Assembly (NCBI GenBank): GCA_013153575.1
Contig: JAADEE010000174.1
Location: forward strand, 1-5,903
DNA from: Chlorobiota bacterium
GTDB taxonomy: Bacteria; Bacteroidota; Bacteroidia; Bacteroidales; JAADGE01
Direction of reading: 5' to 3'
DNA: 5,903 bases
Shown here: piece by piece, positions 82 through 5,903 of the stretch
Numbering within the stretch: position 1 is the first letter of the stretch
Layout: each line of letters starts with the position of its first letter
Program-made: the position numbers and the translations under genes
Notes under the pieces: model-generated
What the model saw: only the letters and a program-made list of their open reading frames with translations
What the model was told of the DNA's origin: nothing
Database searches by the model: none

Positions 82-318
82 ATGGACTTACAAAGAAACA
101 TATTAAAAGGAACATTTATTTTTGGAGTATTAGGAATTGCAATTTTTCTTATTTTAATAATTGCAGGGATAGTAATAAATGCATTAGGCTTAGGGTGTAA
201 CTGTTTTAAAGTATTTTCTCTTTCATTAATAGGAGCAGGGATTTTATTTGGTTTTGCAATGTGGTATTATTCATGTTCAAAAAATTCTGATGGAGAAGAT
301 TGCAAAGGATTAAAATAA
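82..318 (+). CDS. Small two-helix membrane protein with four cysteines, function unknown
   Basis: I do not recognise this 78-residue protein. It has a short basic N-terminus (Arg5, Lys9) and a long hydrophobic stretch at about residues 11-36. A brief loop carries a Cys-Asn-Cys motif (Cys39, Cys41). A second hydrophobic stretch follows at about 44-63, then a polar charged tail with Cys65 and Cys74. The positive-inside tendency suggests both ends are cytoplasmic, which would place the two cysteine pairs on opposite sides of the membrane; this is inference. It is likely real because it has a candidate promoter at 45-52, a sensible ATG, membrane-protein composition and a hairpin terminator about 50 bases after its stop. 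It is the only plus-strand gene, convergent with the block to its right, and shows no sign of belonging to that operon. Pairs of cysteines could bind metal or form disulfides, but no known motif such as CxxC is present. Confidence 0.65.
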   Translation: MDLQRNILKGTFIFGVLGIAIFLILIIAGIVINALGLGCNCFKVFSLSLIGAGILFGFAMWYYSCSKNSDGEDCKGLK

Positions 319-368: not shown

Positions 369-418
369 GCTAAACCTTGTAATATACTTAAATGTTTTAC
401 ATAGGTTTAGCTTTTTTT
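369..418 (+). terminator. Hairpin terminator between convergent genes
   Basis: The 8-base stem GCTAAACC (369-376) pairs exactly with GGTTTAGC (404-411). Inside it, after a small asymmetric bulge, TGTAA (378-382) pairs with TTACA (397-401), leaving a 14-base loop. Seven T residues follow on the plus strand (412-418), so this fits an intrinsic terminator for the 78-aa gene. On the minus strand the same hairpin lies just after the kdsC stop and is followed by a weaker U-rich stretch, so it may serve both directions. The plus-strand T-run overlaps the kdsC stop codon (417-419). Confidence 0.75.
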
Positions 419-923
419 ATTTTAATTTAACCCAAACTTGTTGTGCTCTCATAACTTGTTCAATTACATCACGTATGCAACCTTTGCCTCCTTCTTTGTC
501 AGAAATATAATGTGCAATGTTTTGGATTTCCTCAACTGCATCAGCCGGGCAAGTTGCAAGTCCTGATGCCTTCATAGGCTCATAATCAGGTATGTCATCG
601 CCCATGTATAAAATTTGCTCAGGTTTTATGTTGTATTTCATGTAGAAATCTTCGAAATCATCAATTTTGTCGTGAGAACCAAGATATATGTCAGTTACTC
701 CTAAACCTTGAAATCTTGTTCTTACAGATTCTGATTTGCCACCTGTTATTATGCAAACAATAAAACCATTGTCAACTGCATATTTTACTGCAAAACCATC
801 TTTAACATTCATGTGTCTTGTAAGTTCACCGTCGGTGTGTAAAACCATATCTTGCGAAAATACGCCATCAACATCAAAAACAAATGCTTTTATATCTTTT
901 AATCTTTCTTTAAAATTGTCCAT
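417..923 (-). CDS. kdsC: 3-deoxy-D-manno-octulosonate 8-phosphate phosphatase (KdsC, HAD family)
   Basis: KdsC hydrolyses Kdo-8-phosphate to Kdo and phosphate in the cytoplasm, the step before CMP activation for lipopolysaccharide core synthesis. All HAD motifs are visible in the 168 residues. Motif I is DVDGV (nucleophile Asp17, acid/base Asp19). Motif II is ITGGKS (Thr60). Lys86 fits motif III, and motif IV is GDDIPD (Asp109, Asp110, Asp113). The tail GGKGCIRDVIEQV (145-157) matches the conserved C-terminal Gly-rich loop and RD/E segment of the family. There is no cap insertion, as expected for the tetrameric C0 type, and the length is normal. The close relative KDN-9-phosphate phosphatase has a Glu in motif II where Gly62 sits here, which favours KdsC. 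The ATG lies three bases after the stop of the lipoprotein gene upstream and is in the same frame. No Shine-Dalgarno site is evident, so translation probably depends on coupling. It is the last gene of its operon. Confidence 0.85.
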   Translation of the reverse strand: MDNFKERLKDIKAFVFDVDGVFSQDMVLHTDGELTRHMNVKDGFAVKYAVDNGFIVCIITGGKSESVRTRFQGLGVTDIYLGSHDKIDDFEDFYMKYNIKPEQILYMGDDIPDYEPMKASGLATCPADAVEEIQNIAHYISDKEGGKGCIRDVIEQVMRAQQVWVKLK

Positions 924-926
924 ATT

Positions 927-1985
927 TTATAATTCTGTTACACCAAACTCTAAAATTGCGTAAGGTTTATTTTTAGAAATTTCTTGAAATTTATTATATG
1001 CTTTATCAATTAAATCTGCCGGATAATATTCATTAAAGTCTTCGTCTTTTGTCATAGGACCATAAATGCTAACGCCAAGCCAATCGATGTAATCATCACC
1101 CGGATAGTAAAGTTTTGCATTGTTCCAATCTTCTTCGGGATCGTTATTTACATCGAAATGGAAGAACCAAGTTAAATTATTTGCACCAACTTGTTTGCTT
1201 AAATTTATTATGTGTCGGTATGCATCTCTGAAAATTTCTGCACCATCAGGATAAGATGTATCACCATAGTTTGTGGTTTCTCCTTTGCCATAATATGTTG
1301 CATTCCATGAAAACCAAAATCCGTTAACTTCTGTTCCGAACTCAACTAAAAGGTTTTGATTTGTGTTTTTTGCTTCTTCGAACCAATTTGTTAAGGCTTC
1401 ATCGTGTTTGCCTGAAATTATGTCGTTTAAGTTCCAAATAGGGTCAATGCGTCCTTCTTCAAATTCGCTTCTTGGCATCATTCTTATAAAAGGTGTTTTG
1501 TCTGTGTTAATTATTGCTTGAACTTCATCATATGGAAATACTATTGTGTCATTCCAATTATTTGAAAAATATGCCCATGCAATTTCTTTGCCTATGAGAG
1601 TTTCGTAATCAGTTATGATTTTTTCAGAAACACAATCTTCTTCACCACAAAAATCAGGAAATGAAGCAAAATATTTTTTGTTTTCTATTGGTATTAATTT
1701 ATTGTTTTCAAATTTGCAAGAAGATATGTAATCATCAGAATTTATTAAATTTTTAAAGGTGTTAAGTGATGCTTCTGATGAGTTAACTTTTAGCTGTGTG
1801 TCGTCAAAGTCTTCGTGCCAATATGATATTGCATAAATGTCGTCGTAGTTTTTTACTTCATTAAAAAAAAGTTCTAACCATTCTGATTTTGAGTTGAATA
1901 ATTCATCATCATCATCATTTTTACAACTATTTATTGAAAATGATATTATTAAAATTAATGTTAAAATAATTTTTAGTTGTTTCAT
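927..1985 (-). CDS. GH26-like (beta-mannanase fold) surface lipoprotein, apparently circularly permuted
   Basis: The 352-residue precursor begins with a hydrophobic signal peptide ending in INSC, with Cys21 as the lipidation site. The following KNDDDDE fits the acidic lipoprotein export signal that sends Bacteroidota lipoproteins to the cell surface. The catalytic part resembles GH26: PFIRMMPRS (165-173) for strand 3, FGTEVNGFWFSW (216-227) with candidate acid/base Glu219 after strand 4, DWLGVSIYG (301-309) for strand 6, and AILEFG (343-348) with candidate nucleophile Glu346 on strand 7. The protein stops four residues after this motif, so strand 8 and the last helix are missing at the C-terminus. 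Residues 33-95, including AISYWHEDFD (52-61) and LKVNSSEASL (65-74), resemble that missing C-terminal segment, which suggests circular permutation. The His that usually precedes the acid/base Glu in GH26 is Thr218 here. Cys113 and Cys118 could form a disulfide. The start overlaps the preceding stop as TAATG, implying coupled translation. The substrate is unknown; mannan-type activity is only a family-level guess. Confidence 0.72.
   Translation of the reverse strand: MKQLKIILTLILIISFSINSCKNDDDDELFNSKSEWLELFFNEVKNYDDIYAISYWHEDFDDTQLKVNSSEASLNTFKNLINSDDYISSCKFENNKLIPIENKKYFASFPDFCGEEDCVSEKIITDYETLIGKEIAWAYFSNNWNDTIVFPYDEVQAIINTDKTPFIRMMPRSEFEEGRIDPIWNLNDIISGKHDEALTNWFEEAKNTNQNLLVEFGTEVNGFWFSWNATYYGKGETTNYGDTSYPDGAEIFRDAYRHIINLSKQVGANNLTWFFHFDVNNDPEEDWNNAKLYYPGDDYIDWLGVSIYGPMTKDEDFNEYYPADLIDKAYNKFQEISKNKPYAILEFGVTEL
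1905..1916 (-). repeat. Four GAT codons encoding the acidic export-signal stretch
   Basis: Four perfect GAT triplets encode Asp24-Asp27 of the lipoprotein, three residues after the lipidated Cys21. Gain or loss of one unit would change the number of aspartates without a frameshift. Because the stretch forms the likely surface-export signal, its length could matter, but four copies is short and may have no special behaviour. Confidence 0.6.
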
Positions 1986-2770
1986 TATTTAGTTTCTTCA
2001 ATATTTTTGCTCACAAATTTATAAATGTTTTGCAAATTTGTATTATCTTTTAAAAGTTCGAGGTGTTTGTTCATAACTTTGGTGTCTTTTCTAACGGCAG
2101 GACCTGTTTGAACTTTTTTAGGGCTTTCTTTTTGAATTTTTGCAACTGTTTCATTAATTAAAGGAAGCAAAATGTCAAAATCAATGTCTTTCTCTTTTAA
2201 TATTTCTTCTGCAATAGCAAACATATTATTTGAAAAGTTATTTGCAAAAACTGCGGCTAAATGTATGTATTTGCGTTGCTCAAAATTTATTTTTCGGACA
2301 TCTTCACTAATTTGAAATGCAATTTTGCTAATTCGATTATAGTTAAATCCTGAATTTGCTTCTAAACAAAGTGGAATATTTTTAAAGTTGGCTTTTTTGA
2401 AACGAGAAAATGTTTGCAAAGGATAAAAAATGCCAAAATTTGCAGAAAGTTTTTCTAAAATATTTGCTTGTATGCTTCCTGCTGTATGAACTACAAGATT
2501 GTTATTAATTTTTTCTTTTAAAGTTTTATTATTTACAATTTCAGAAATTGCATCATCAGAAATTGAAATTATGTATAAATTTGCATCAAAAGGAATGTCA
2601 TTTACATCAAAAGAGTAGGAGGGTGCATTTATTTTATTTGCAAGTAATTTTGCTGCCCCCTCAGTTCTGCTATGAATATGAATTTCTTTCGATATTTTTT
2701 CATAGAAAACTTGTGCAATGTTTGTTGCAAGGTTTCCGGCTCCAATTATTACAATTTGATTATTTGCCAT
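1985..2770 (-). CDS. Rossmann-like NAD(P)-binding protein with DUF2520 C-terminal domain
   Basis: This 261-residue protein has an N-terminal Rossmann fold with the dinucleotide motif GAGNLA (10-15) right after a hydrophobic strand. A conserved HTAGS (95-99) follows, like related ProC / F420-NADP-oxidoreductase-type proteins. The C-terminal helical DUF2520 domain shows its family hallmarks: YPLQTFS (116-122), HLAAVFANNF (170-179) and QTGPAVRKD (221-229). The architecture predicts a cytoplasmic dehydrogenase or reductase, but the substrate of the family is not established to my knowledge. In many Bacteroidota genomes this gene sits directly before kdsC and a maf gene (recalled, not searched). 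Here a GH26-like lipoprotein gene lies between it and kdsC. The ATG at 2770 is supported by AAGGA six bases upstream and by a -7 promoter box further up. The stop TAA shares its last A with the next gene's ATG. Length is normal for the family and I see no damage. Confidence 0.82.
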   Translation of the reverse strand: MANNQIVIIGAGNLATNIAQVFYEKISKEIHIHSRTEGAAKLLANKINAPSYSFDVNDIPFDANLYIISISDDAISEIVNNKTLKEKINNNLVVHTAGSIQANILEKLSANFGIFYPLQTFSRFKKANFKNIPLCLEANSGFNYNRISKIAFQISEDVRKINFEQRKYIHLAAVFANNFSNNMFAIAEEILKEKDIDFDILLPLINETVAKIQKESPKKVQTGPAVRKDTKVMNKHLELLKDNTNLQNIYKFVSKNIEETK

Positions 2771-2815: not shown

Positions 2816-5800
2816 TTAAAACATAAATATACTATTTAGTTTTTCGGTATATTCTTTTTGGTTGTGTTTTTCTGTAATGTCAATGTAAAGTTTTGTTATG
2901 TATTGTAATTCAGCAATTTCACTATATGCTTGTCCTTTAAAGTTACTGCCTATTTTTGTATAATATTTTAAGCTTTCACTTGTGTTTTTTATTATTACAT
3001 CTAAAATTTTGTAAGCTTTTTCATTTTCTTCAAGTTCAAAATATGCATCAACAATATTTAGCATTGATTCGTCGTATTTTATTTTATTTTCAGGTAAAAT
3101 TTCAACAACATAATCTAGTGTTTTAATTGCTTTTTCTTTCTTGCCTTCTTTAATAAGTTTTTTAGCTAATTTTGCAAAAGTTTCTCTTATTTTTAAAATT
3201 CTTATATTTCTTGCATCAAAATTTCCAATGTAAACATCATCTTCGTTTACACGTCCCCAAACAAATTTATTCATTAAGTTATTATATAAAATGTTTGTGT
3301 TAATATAACCAATTTCGTTTGTGGTTTTGTATGGAACAAGGCGATATGCAAAGCCTTCTAATCTGAAATAATCTTGTAATCCTAAAAAACTGCTATGTGG
3401 CACACTTGTAGCAAAATAAATAGGTCGCTTCCAATTGTTGCGAGCAATAATTTCAAGAACTGCCATGTCATTTTTATAAATGAATGTATTATTTAGTTTC
3501 CATTTTATGTTTTTTTCAAATTTGCTTAATTCTTTAATTGTGAAATCTCCTGATTTTGTGAGATTAGCCCAATCAACCTTTAATGAAAGTTTTTTTGATG
3601 GAATATAATTTATTTCATTACCGTCATTTGCTTGAAGTTTTGTGTCGTAATCATCTGATGCAACAAAATCCATTGCAGTTGTAAGAGGTAAGTTTTTCTT
3701 AGAAATTTCTGTAAGAAATATTTGTGTTTTATCTGTTAGGTCGTTAACAAGTGAGGTGTTAATATCATATTTATTTATAAATGTTTCGTTAGATAATTTA
3801 TTAATAATTCCTGCAAACTCAATAGGTGAGAAATTATTTATTTCACTAATTAAAGTGTTGTATTCCTTTTTATTAAGTTTTGGATATGATGATTTTTTAA
3901 GAATGTTTTTTAATCCTTCTTTTATAATGTTAAATGTATCTTGAAGTAATATTTTATTTGCATTATATTTTTCATCAATAAATAGTTCAGGATTGTCCAT
4001 AACGTAAAGTGCATCACGTTTACCTTCTCTATATTTGTTGTGTTTCATTGAAAAAGGTACAGGTTCTGCTTCGTATGTTTTCGTTTTCATTTGGTCGATA
4101 TACCAATCTGTTCCGAGTAAACTTAGGTTTACAACTTTAATGTCAGTTCTATATCCTTCAACTTCTTGTACAAACCATAGTGGGAAAGTATCATTATCGC
4201 CATAAGTGAAAAGTATTGCATTTTTTTCGCAAGAATCTAAATAATCTTTTGCAAAATCTCTTGCTGTATATTTTCCGGAACGGTCGTGGTCGTCCCAATT
4301 TTGAGTTGCTAAAATTACAGGTACAGGAATAGTTAAAATAATTGCCAAAGTAACAGCTATTTTTTTAGATGTTTTAGAACTCAAAAAGTTGTAAATTCCT
4401 GCAACACCTAACCCTATCCATATGGCAAATGCGTAGAAAGAACCTGCATAAGCGTAATCTCTTTCGCGAGGTTGATAAGGTGTTTGGTTTAGATAAACTA
4501 CAATTGCAATTCCTGTAAATAAAAATAGTAAAAATATTATTAATAAACTTCGTTTATCTTCTGAAAATAGAAGTAAAATTCCTAAAATTCCTAAAATTAA
4601 AGGTAAAAAATAATATGTGTTTCTGCTTTTGTCATTTTTAACTTTTTCAGGTAAGTTGCTTTGGTTTCCAAGCATTAAACTATCAATAAATGAAATGCCT
4701 GAAATCCAATTGCCATTTGTAATACCTCCGTTTCCTTGAATGTTGTTTTGTCTTCCTACAAAATTCCACATAAAATATCTTAAATACATATGTGAAAGTT
4801 GATAAGATATGAAAAATTGAATGTTATTAATAAAATTTGGTTTTTCTCCTTTGCTTAATCCACCCCAAATTCTATATGCTGAAATATGATGTTGCTCTCT
4901 GCTGTACATTCTTGGGAAAATAGTTTTTCTGGCATCGTCAAATTCATATTCAGGATTTGTTTTTTCAATTTTAAGATATTTGTCTCCTTCTTGAATGTAT
5001 GTGTAACGAGGATGTGTAACATAATCGCCATTTTCTTGCTTTAATTCTGCATCGAAATATTGTCCGTAAATTAATGGTCGTGAGCCATATTGCTCTCTGT
5101 TTAAGTATGATAGTAATGAGAAAATATTTTCAGGATTGTTCTCATCCATAGGAGGATTTGCATAAGAACGTATCATAATAATTGTGTAAGATGAATATCC
5201 TATAAGGATTACAATTATTGATGTAAGTATTGTGTTTAGTAATATTTTTTGTTTTTTGTATGAATAATAAATTCCGTATGCTAATAATCCAAAAGTTAGG
5301 AAGATGTAAAATAACAGTCCACTATTAAAGGGTAAACCGAATGTGTTAACAAAAAGAAGCTCGAATTTTGAGGCAATTACAACGTATTCTAAAATAATTC
5401 CATACATTAAAAAGCCAACCAAAGCAACTGAAATAATTGCTGAATAAAAAAGACCTTTGTTTGTAACTTTATGTTTTTTGAAATAATAAACAAAAACTAT
5501 TGCAGGAATTGCCAAAAGGTTAAGTAAATGTACACCAATTGAAAGTCCCATTATAAATGCAATAAATATTAGCCAACGATTTGAGTATTTTTGGTCAGAA
5601 ATTGTTTCCCATTTAAGTATTGCCCAAAATACAATTGCAGTAAAAAGTGAAGAGCTTGCATAAACTTCTGCTTCAACAGCCGAAAACCAAAATGTATCGG
5701 AAAAAGTGTATGCTAACGAACCAATAAACCCGCTTGCAAAAATTGCAATTGCAGTTTCTTTTGAAATTTCTTTATTGCCTTTTGTAAGAACTTTTTTTGC

Positions 5801-5903
5801 AAAATACGTAATAGTCCAAAATAAAAACAAAATTGTAAATGCACTTGCTAATACAGAAACAGAATTAATGAAAATAGCAACCATTTCTCTGTTTGGTGCA
5901 AAT
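2816..5903 (-). CDS. DUF2723 / TMEM260-like GT-C membrane glycosyltransferase with C-terminal TPR-like region (5' end outside window)
   Basis: A polytopic membrane protein of the DUF2723 family. The human member TMEM260 is a protein O-mannosyltransferase (CAZy GT117), so a lipid-sugar-dependent transferase at the membrane is the best guess. Counting from Met at 5884 (1022 residues), about ten hydrophobic segments occur at 8-30, 44-62, 76-92, 104-135, 146-168, 189-208, 214-238, 424-441, 446-465, 480-500 and 508-527. Family signatures include FWFSAVEAEVY (65-75), GVHLLNLLAIP (117-127), RMYSREQHH (325-333), PYQPRERDYAYAG (469-481), NWDDHDRSG (529-537) and FTYGDNDTFPLWF (559-571). A large soluble part follows (530-890) with NNWKRPIYFAT (816-826) and DYFRLEGFAYRLVP (838-851). 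Residues 893-1000 form TPR-like helices. The frame stays open upstream of 5884 to the edge (FAPNRE then Met), and the family normally has further N-terminal residues with the catalytic acidic loop and a HPPG-type motif. The real start therefore lies beyond the window. The C-terminus looks complete. Confidence 0.85.
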   Translation of the reverse strand, partial: FAPNREMVAIFINSVSVLASAFTILFLFWTITYFAKKVLTKGNKEISKETAIAIFASGFIGSLAYTFSDTFWFSAVEAEVYASSSLFTAIVFWAILKWETISDQKYSNRWLIFIAFIMGLSIGVHLLNLLAIPAIVFVYYFKKHKVTNKGLFYSAIISVALVGFLMYGIILEYVVIASKFELLFVNTFGLPFNSGLLFYIFLTFGLLAYGIYYSYKKQKILLNTILTSIIVILIGYSSYTIIMIRSYANPPMDENNPENIFSLLSYLNREQYGSRPLIYGQYFDAELKQENGDYVTHPRYTYIQEGDKYLKIEKTNPEYEFDDARKTIFPRMYSREQHHISAYRIWGGLSKGEKPNFINNIQFFISYQLSHMYLRYFMWNFVGRQNNIQGNGGITNGNWISGISFIDSLMLGNQSNLPEKVKNDKSRNTYYFLPLILGILGILLLFSEDKRSLLIIFLLFLFTGIAIVVYLNQTPYQPRERDYAYAGSFYAFAIWIGLGVAGIYNFLSSKTSKKIAVTLAIILTIPVPVILATQNWDDHDRSGKYTARDFAKDYLDSCEKNAILFTYGDNDTFPLWFVQEVEGYRTDIKVVNLSLLGTDWYIDQMKTKTYEAEPVPFSMKHNKYREGKRDALYVMDNPELFIDEKYNANKILLQDTFNIIKEGLKNILKKSSYPKLNKKEYNTLISEINNFSPIEFAGIINKLSNETFINKYDINTSLVNDLTDKTQIFLTEISKKNLPLTTAMDFVASDDYDTKLQANDGNEINYIPSKKLSLKVDWANLTKSGDFTIKELSKFEKNIKWKLNNTFIYKNDMAVLEIIARNNWKRPIYFATSVPHSSFLGLQDYFRLEGFAYRLVPYKTTNEIGYINTNILYNNLMNKFVWGRVNEDDVYIGNFDARNIRILKIRETFAKLAKKLIKEGKKEKAIKTLDYVVEILPENKIKYDESMLNIVDAYFELEENEKAYKILDVIIKNTSESLKYYTKIGSNFKGQAYSEIAELQYITKLYIDITEKHNQKEYTEKLNSIFMF
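4574..4598 (-). repeat. Short 9-base tandem repeat inside a membrane helix
   Basis: The unit TAAAATTCC (plus strand) occurs 2.8 times in tandem, in frame with the DUF2723 gene, where it encodes the repeated ILG of LILGILGILLL (429-439) in a hydrophobic helix. A change of one unit would add or remove three residues without a frameshift. It is probably a by-product of AT-rich coding for a low-complexity helix. Confidence 0.6.

Follow-up and report, generated by a model that had tools for sequence, protein, structure and literature searches.

This analysis concerns a gene in a 5,903-nucleotide stretch of DNA (contig JAADEE010000174.1, assembly GCA_013153575.1, Chlorobiota bacterium), here called the window, which occupies positions 927..1985 on the minus strand and encodes a protein of 352 residues plus stop in one open frame. 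The protein is related to glycoside hydrolase family 26 (GH26), and its chain is very probably circularly permuted: the segment that ends a canonical GH26 chain sits at its N-terminus. Residues 28-82 are homologous to the canonical C-terminus, the order is clade-wide, canonical siblings exist, and the seam between the two pieces lies near residues 92-96. The structure is predicted to be a full (β/α)8 barrel with the order α7-β8-α8-β1-...-β7, with strand 8 predicted to pack beside strand 1. A first-pass annotation had already read the protein as a GH26-like barrel with a strand 8/helix 8 piece at the N-terminus, and profile searches, hhalign, the structure model and the clade-wide order uphold that reading. 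The moved piece is not limited to strand 8 and helix 8, as helix 7 and the former C-terminal tail moved too (about residues 28-95 in all); in the predicted order, α7 comes first. The chain includes SEWLELFFNEV (residues 34-44), AISYWHEDFD (52-61) and LKVNSSEASL (65-74) and ends in ILEFGVTEL; the nucleophile, whose motif had been placed four residues before this end, is Glu346, six residues before it.

The nearest solved relative is CtLic26A, the catalytic domain of Endoglucanase H from Clostridium thermocellum (2bv9/2cip) and a GH26 lichenase. Once the chain is rotated, the two are homologous over nearly the whole barrel, with the catalytic glutamate pair in the same places, whereas CtLic26A has the canonical order, keeps the histidine of the HE motif and shares 24% identity over 217 aligned residues. 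With the protein as a single query (phmmer against PDB sequences), residues 184-351 matched CtLic26A 74-227 and residues 28-81 matched 227-280. Taken alone, the N-terminal piece of this match is weak (independent E 3.4), which would suit another explanation, namely that the N-terminal resemblance is due to chance or to a separate domain, and that strand 7 is the last of the barrel or strand 8 is supplied by a partner. However, a profile of 100 sequences (A1) placed its positions 122-348 on residues 23-227 of the CtLic26A chain (E 1.9e-17) and its positions 29-82 on residues 231-282 (independent E 2e-6, with 177,635 sequences searched). Against an alignment of 121 CtLic26A-like rows, hhalign gave two matches with the unrotated profile (scores 190 and 81), against one long match (score 262 over 253 columns) when the segment was moved after the core. 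The canonical C-terminal 56 columns were matched only by pieces overlapping residues 28-82 when 33 pieces of 55 columns were scanned (best E 5e-18), and the 24 pieces starting at residue 82 or later gave E 0.07 or worse. In the converse test the segment profile fell after the core in 119 of 120 CtLic26A-like proteins (113 of 120 at a stricter setting). A chance match at the N-terminus was rejected on the profile E of 2e-6 and the hhalign scan; the wider explanation is very improbable given these results, the gain on rotation, the confident eight-strand model, the couplings, and a canonical sibling clade that carries the segment at the C-terminus.

The predicted model of the permuted protein (predicted local distance difference test score, pLDDT, 93.4) has eight barrel strands, with a strand at residues 50-56 and a helix at 71-81, as the first-pass annotation had expected. 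The packing of strand 8 next to strands 7 and 1 has indirect support. Several points weigh against it: it rests on the model, the alignment and residue couplings (computed from 193 distinct permuted sequences), the coupling between β8 and β7 (3.57) is not above that between β8 and β3 (3.70), and some high-coupling pairs (79-277, 83-154, 1-121) match no barrel contact. The best Foldseek match had a query template modelling (TM) score of 0.52 over 236 columns; aligners of this type keep chain order and therefore cannot show the permuted match itself. Because helix 7 was relocated together with strand 8 and helix 8, the cut is placed in the β7-α7 loop. Since a complete barrel is still predicted, this is likely an enzyme class that nature has re-cut right beside its active site.

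In total 440 sequences were classified, drawn from 120 of 912, 120 of 2431 and 120 of 374 matches listed and from the 80 of 391 genome loci kept; these sets overlap, some loci being equal to protein (P) entries, and include the window's own protein. Among them 210 are permuted, 227 canonical and three in neither class, and none carries the segment at both ends, the outcome that the first-pass annotation had named as contrary to its reading. Its question whether the permuted order is common to a clade was answered in the affirmative: all 120 homologues among the 912 matches (those listed, the window's own included) and 79 of the 80 genome loci are permuted, the remaining locus being broken by Ns. 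The fragmented source assembly (313 contigs, 70.7% complete) might raise the suspicion that misassembly or a frameshift in this contig produced the order, but the gene is one open frame and the 210 permuted sequences come from many contigs and genomes; this possibility is negligible, and a chimera was rejected since the same order is found in other genomes. Bacteroidota groups are named in most record titles of the genome loci. Permuted genes were also seen in metagenome-assembled genomes titled Spirochaetaceae (L052), Sedimenticola (L071), Bdellovibrionales (L093), WOR-3 (L105), Phycisphaerae (L107) and Gammaproteobacteria (L111), through either transfer or mis-binning.

In a phylum sample of 395 genomes, eight matched A1 at 1e-20: the window's own, with its permuted protein, two with canonical siblings (L113 and L114), four with more distant proteins of canonical order (L115-L118) and one (L119) in which the segment match was not significant. 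The canonical siblings (P0241 and relatives, a few of them named Ignavibacteria or Chlorobi) resemble the permuted proteins in their core, that of L113 scoring 316 bits with the permuted profile, and in the absence of the HE-motif histidine (none of 108 has it, one being unread). They differ in their canonical order, in mostly lacking a lipobox and in that 18 of 108 bear a C-terminal extension of more than 40 residues, against none of 197 permuted sequences. Six siblings (P0297, P0301, P0302, P0305, P0307 and P0309) carry a precomputed PF18962 domain; for one of them the source gives the name T9SS type A sorting domain protein.

The siblings also make the seam readable. The full permuted profile splits into two pieces in all 108 of them, the C-terminal piece stopping most commonly at window residue 92 (42 siblings; at 89-97 in 103) and the N-terminal piece starting most commonly at 90 or 93 (20 each; at 89-96 in 82). 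From the segment end to the stop, 87 of the 108 siblings have 10-16 residues, most often 12 (55 siblings), and 19 have a longer tail, while in the permuted proteins the distance from the segment end to the K-L before strand 1 is 13 residues in 173 of 193 distinct sequences. The tail of the siblings and their K-L stretch before strand 1 thus appear to meet at about residues 92-96 with little added or lost; given the two-piece matches and the tail lengths, the old C-terminal tail seems to run almost straight into the old mature N-terminus, with no second signal peptide in between. A sibling model has short strands at 23-24, 340-341 and 345-346, near both chain ends, and the permuted model has short strands in matching places at the join (86-87, 92-93 and 96-97), which suggests that the two ends of the chain lay near each other beforehand. 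At the other end, a short loop leads from canonical strand 7 to helix 7, and the permuted chains stop inside that loop, 0-16 residues past the core match (4 or 5 in 180 of 197 distinct sequences).

The first-pass annotation had suggested a tandem duplication followed by trimming of both ends. This fits the seam, and we infer it to be a probable route, in which a canonical gene would have been duplicated in tandem and fused, after which the front of the first copy and the end of the second would have been lost, with the new cut placed in the β7-α7 loop directly after the nucleophile strand. Against it stands that no duplication intermediate, with the segment at both ends, was found among the 440 sequences.

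The direction and number of events were addressed with two trees. The core tree comprised 71 rows (29 permuted, 32 canonical siblings and 10 CtLic26A-like rows as root) and the core-plus-segment tree 67 rows (35 permuted and 32 canonical siblings), rooted on two canonical siblings; the siblings were picked for spread, and three P0334-type rows as well as L082, L085 and L094 were added by hand to the second tree. On both trees the permuted rows nest among canonical rows, so that with this rooting the canonical order is ancestral. The 10 CtLic26-like rows form one side of a branch (100/100 in the core tree), with the 61 permuted and sibling rows all on the other, and the window protein is thus outside the clade of CtLic26A-like lichenases. 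In lacking the HE-motif histidine, the permuted and sibling proteins together resemble a GH26 branch of their own, of which no solved member appeared among the PDB sequence matches.

The main permuted clade is supported at 86/98 in the core tree and 99/97 in the core-plus-segment tree. P0334-type sequences, which end in ...EFGVVE, stand apart from it, as one row in the core tree and as a second permuted clade of four rows (P0334, P0336, P0339 and P0350; 100/100) in the core-plus-segment tree. It is therefore a real possibility, if not the favoured one, that the permutation arose twice at nearly the same seam. The permuted rows need two changes on both trees, none of 200 bootstrap trees joins the two clades on either, and the starred branches alone force two changes on the core tree. 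On the core-plus-segment tree, however, the starred branches force only one change, a joint clade costs 11.4 log units and is not rejected (approximately unbiased, AU, test p 0.235), and the split depends on four sequences. Both clades moreover share the cut site, the lipobox and a similar join, as one origin predicts, and for this reason a single origin is considered somewhat more likely; two origins as a firm claim was dropped on the AU p value.

Whether the permuted barrel is active was judged from conservation in 100 of the 120 listed proteins. Glu219 and Glu346 are invariant in all 100, as are Arg168, Arg172, Trp224, Trp227 and His276, and because of this invariance of the catalytic pair and other cleft residues the protein is likely a retaining, double-displacement glycosidase, with Glu219 as acid/base and Glu346 as nucleophile, acting on some β-glycan. 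Catalysis is made uncertain by the histidine of the HE motif, which is present in 114 of 119 CtLic26-like proteins and replaced in the permuted ones (Thr 200, Ala 6, Val 3 and Cys 1 of 210). This replacement would favour a non-catalytic carbohydrate binder, an unlikely alternative in view of the seven invariant residues and of the GH26 xylanases and another GH26 branch, which also lack that histidine (PMC6556568). As a glycosidase, the protein probably differs in specificity from lichenases and mannanases, since the histidine is absent in permuted and sibling proteins alike. Owing to Thr218 at this position we term the protein GH26-related rather than a typical GH26 enzyme. It passes the Pfam cut-off and has the catalytic glutamate pair, but does not run linearly from β1 to β8.

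In TIM barrels the loops after the strands form the catalytic face. Cys21, the predicted lipid anchor of the window protein, precedes helix 7 by about 10 residues, and of the 203 permuted sequences with length 330-380 and no X (out of 210), 174 have a lipobox-like Cys, at a distance of 6-22 residues, with a median of 10. As the β7-α7 loop lies on the catalytic face, the anchor may attach the enzyme to the membrane at the rim of its active site, whereas in a canonical lipoprotein the attachment would be at the floor of the barrel; we give this even chances. By a loose pattern, 160 of 188 permuted sequences with a complete N-terminus have a lipobox-like Cys, as do 13 of the 91 canonical siblings used out of 108; a stricter pattern gives 123 and 8. 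These counts are not independent of kinship. The idea is weakened by the imperfect lipobox I-N-S-C, by the about 15% of permuted relatives that show no lipobox by the loose pattern, and by an active-site orientation that is geometry from the barrel topology. Rather doubtful is the further reading of the permutation as an adaptive re-plugging, in which a cut in the loop next to the nucleophile and the joining of the old ends would have shifted the anchor from the floor of the barrel to its catalytic rim, with the active site facing the outer membrane, and this twice, in two clades, at the same cut and seam. If true, clan GH-A would thereby gain its first case of natural circular permutation. 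The export signal of Bacteroidota surface lipoproteins is given as K-(D/E)2 or Q-A-(D/E)2 (PMC5080379). The window protein reads C-K-N-D-D-D-D-E after the lipobox, and the exact motif occurs within six residues in 25 of 166 distinct lipobox sequences; the signal was accordingly rejected as a family trait.

No report of a natural permutation in GH26 or clan GH-A was found in the literature searched (open-licence papers only). MalS is reportedly an α-amylase with permuted domains. A precedent is provided by the GH70 glucansucrases, which relative to GH13 (clan GH-H) represent a natural circular permutation of a glycosidase (β/α)8 barrel and for which permutation by duplication has been proposed (PMC4919382). 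As in the window protein, their barrel starts with a helix and non-permuted relatives exist; they differ in belonging to another clan, in starting at helix 3 instead of helix 7, and in being multidomain sucrose or starch enzymes. The GH26 β-mannanases BoMan26A and BoMan26B of Bacteroidota share the fold family, but have the canonical order and the HE motif and are encoded in mannan utilisation loci (PMC6556568).

With about 200 permuted sequences, unpermuted siblings of similar length and a seam that can be located to a few residues, natural protein pairs are available for testing the route, the folding cost and what changes when a lipid anchor is shifted to the catalytic rim. Proteins of this type are only partly covered by profile annotation: PF02156 (GH26) matches the window protein at residues 198-316 only (profile positions 139-239; 31.6 bits against a Pfam cut-off of 20.2), and an NCBIfam scan gave no match up to E 0.1. 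The features of the protein are collected in Table 1.

Table 1. Features of the permuted GH26-related protein, with positions in the window
Feature	Position	Strand	Basis
Permuted GH26-related gene	927..1985	-	Open reading frame (ORF); PF02156 match
Predicted signal peptide, residues 1-20, lipobox I-N-S-C	1926..1985	-	Sequence; predicted helix 2-18
Cys21, predicted lipid anchor	1923..1925	-	Kept in at least 90% of 100 aligned sequences
Linker from Cys21 to helix 7, residues 22-32, KNDDDDELFNS	1890..1922	-	Cys-to-helix 7 spacing in relatives
Helix 7, residues 33-44, relocated	1854..1889	-	Model; aligned to CtLic26A from residue 231
Strand 8, residues 50-56, IYAISYW, relocated	1818..1838	-	Model; profile and hhalign matches
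Helix 8, residues 71-81, relocated	1743..1775	-	Model; profile and hhalign matches
Former C-terminal tail match, residues 83-95	1701..1739	-	Matching tail runs to stop in canonical siblings
Seam of old C-terminus and old mature N-terminus, about residues 92-96	1698..1712	-	Two-piece profile match in siblings
Barrel core, strand 1 to strand 7, residues 104-348	942..1676	-	
Glu219, predicted acid/base after strand 4	1329..1331	-	Invariant (100/100); ungapped alignment to Glu of CtLic26A HEANG
Thr218, replaces usual GH26 His of HE motif	1332..1334	-	Residue counts in relatives
Glu346, predicted nucleophile, end of strand 7	948..950	-	Invariant (100/100); aligned to CtLic26A EFASAE
New C-terminus, residues 349-352, and stop	927..941	-	Chain-end counts in permuted sequences

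The gene lies in a tight run (417..2770), flanked upstream by a DUF2520-type Rossmann gene (1985..2770) and downstream by a KdsC-type phosphatase gene (417..923; TIGR01670, 128.3 bits against an NCBIfam cut-off of 106.95). The first base of its ATG is also the final base of the DUF2520-type gene's stop codon, and 3 bases lie between its own stop and the start of the phosphatase gene. Among 81 loci, this arrangement is common only to the window and its near relatives L032-L034. A conserved neighbourhood was sought as a clue to the substrate, and no neighbour cluster occurred in more than 5 of the 81 loci within at most four ORFs on each side, as called by a simple greedy ORF caller on loci of which many are short. 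No second copy of the gene was found in its own genome, as covered by the 70.7% complete assembly. Elsewhere in the window, 2816..5902 (minus strand) encodes a protein of at least 1028 residues that runs off the window, judged by eye to be rich in membrane-like stretches and with only weak NCBIfam matches, to its last part, and near the low end 82..318 (plus strand) is an ORF of 78 amino acids with two membrane-like stretches by eye.
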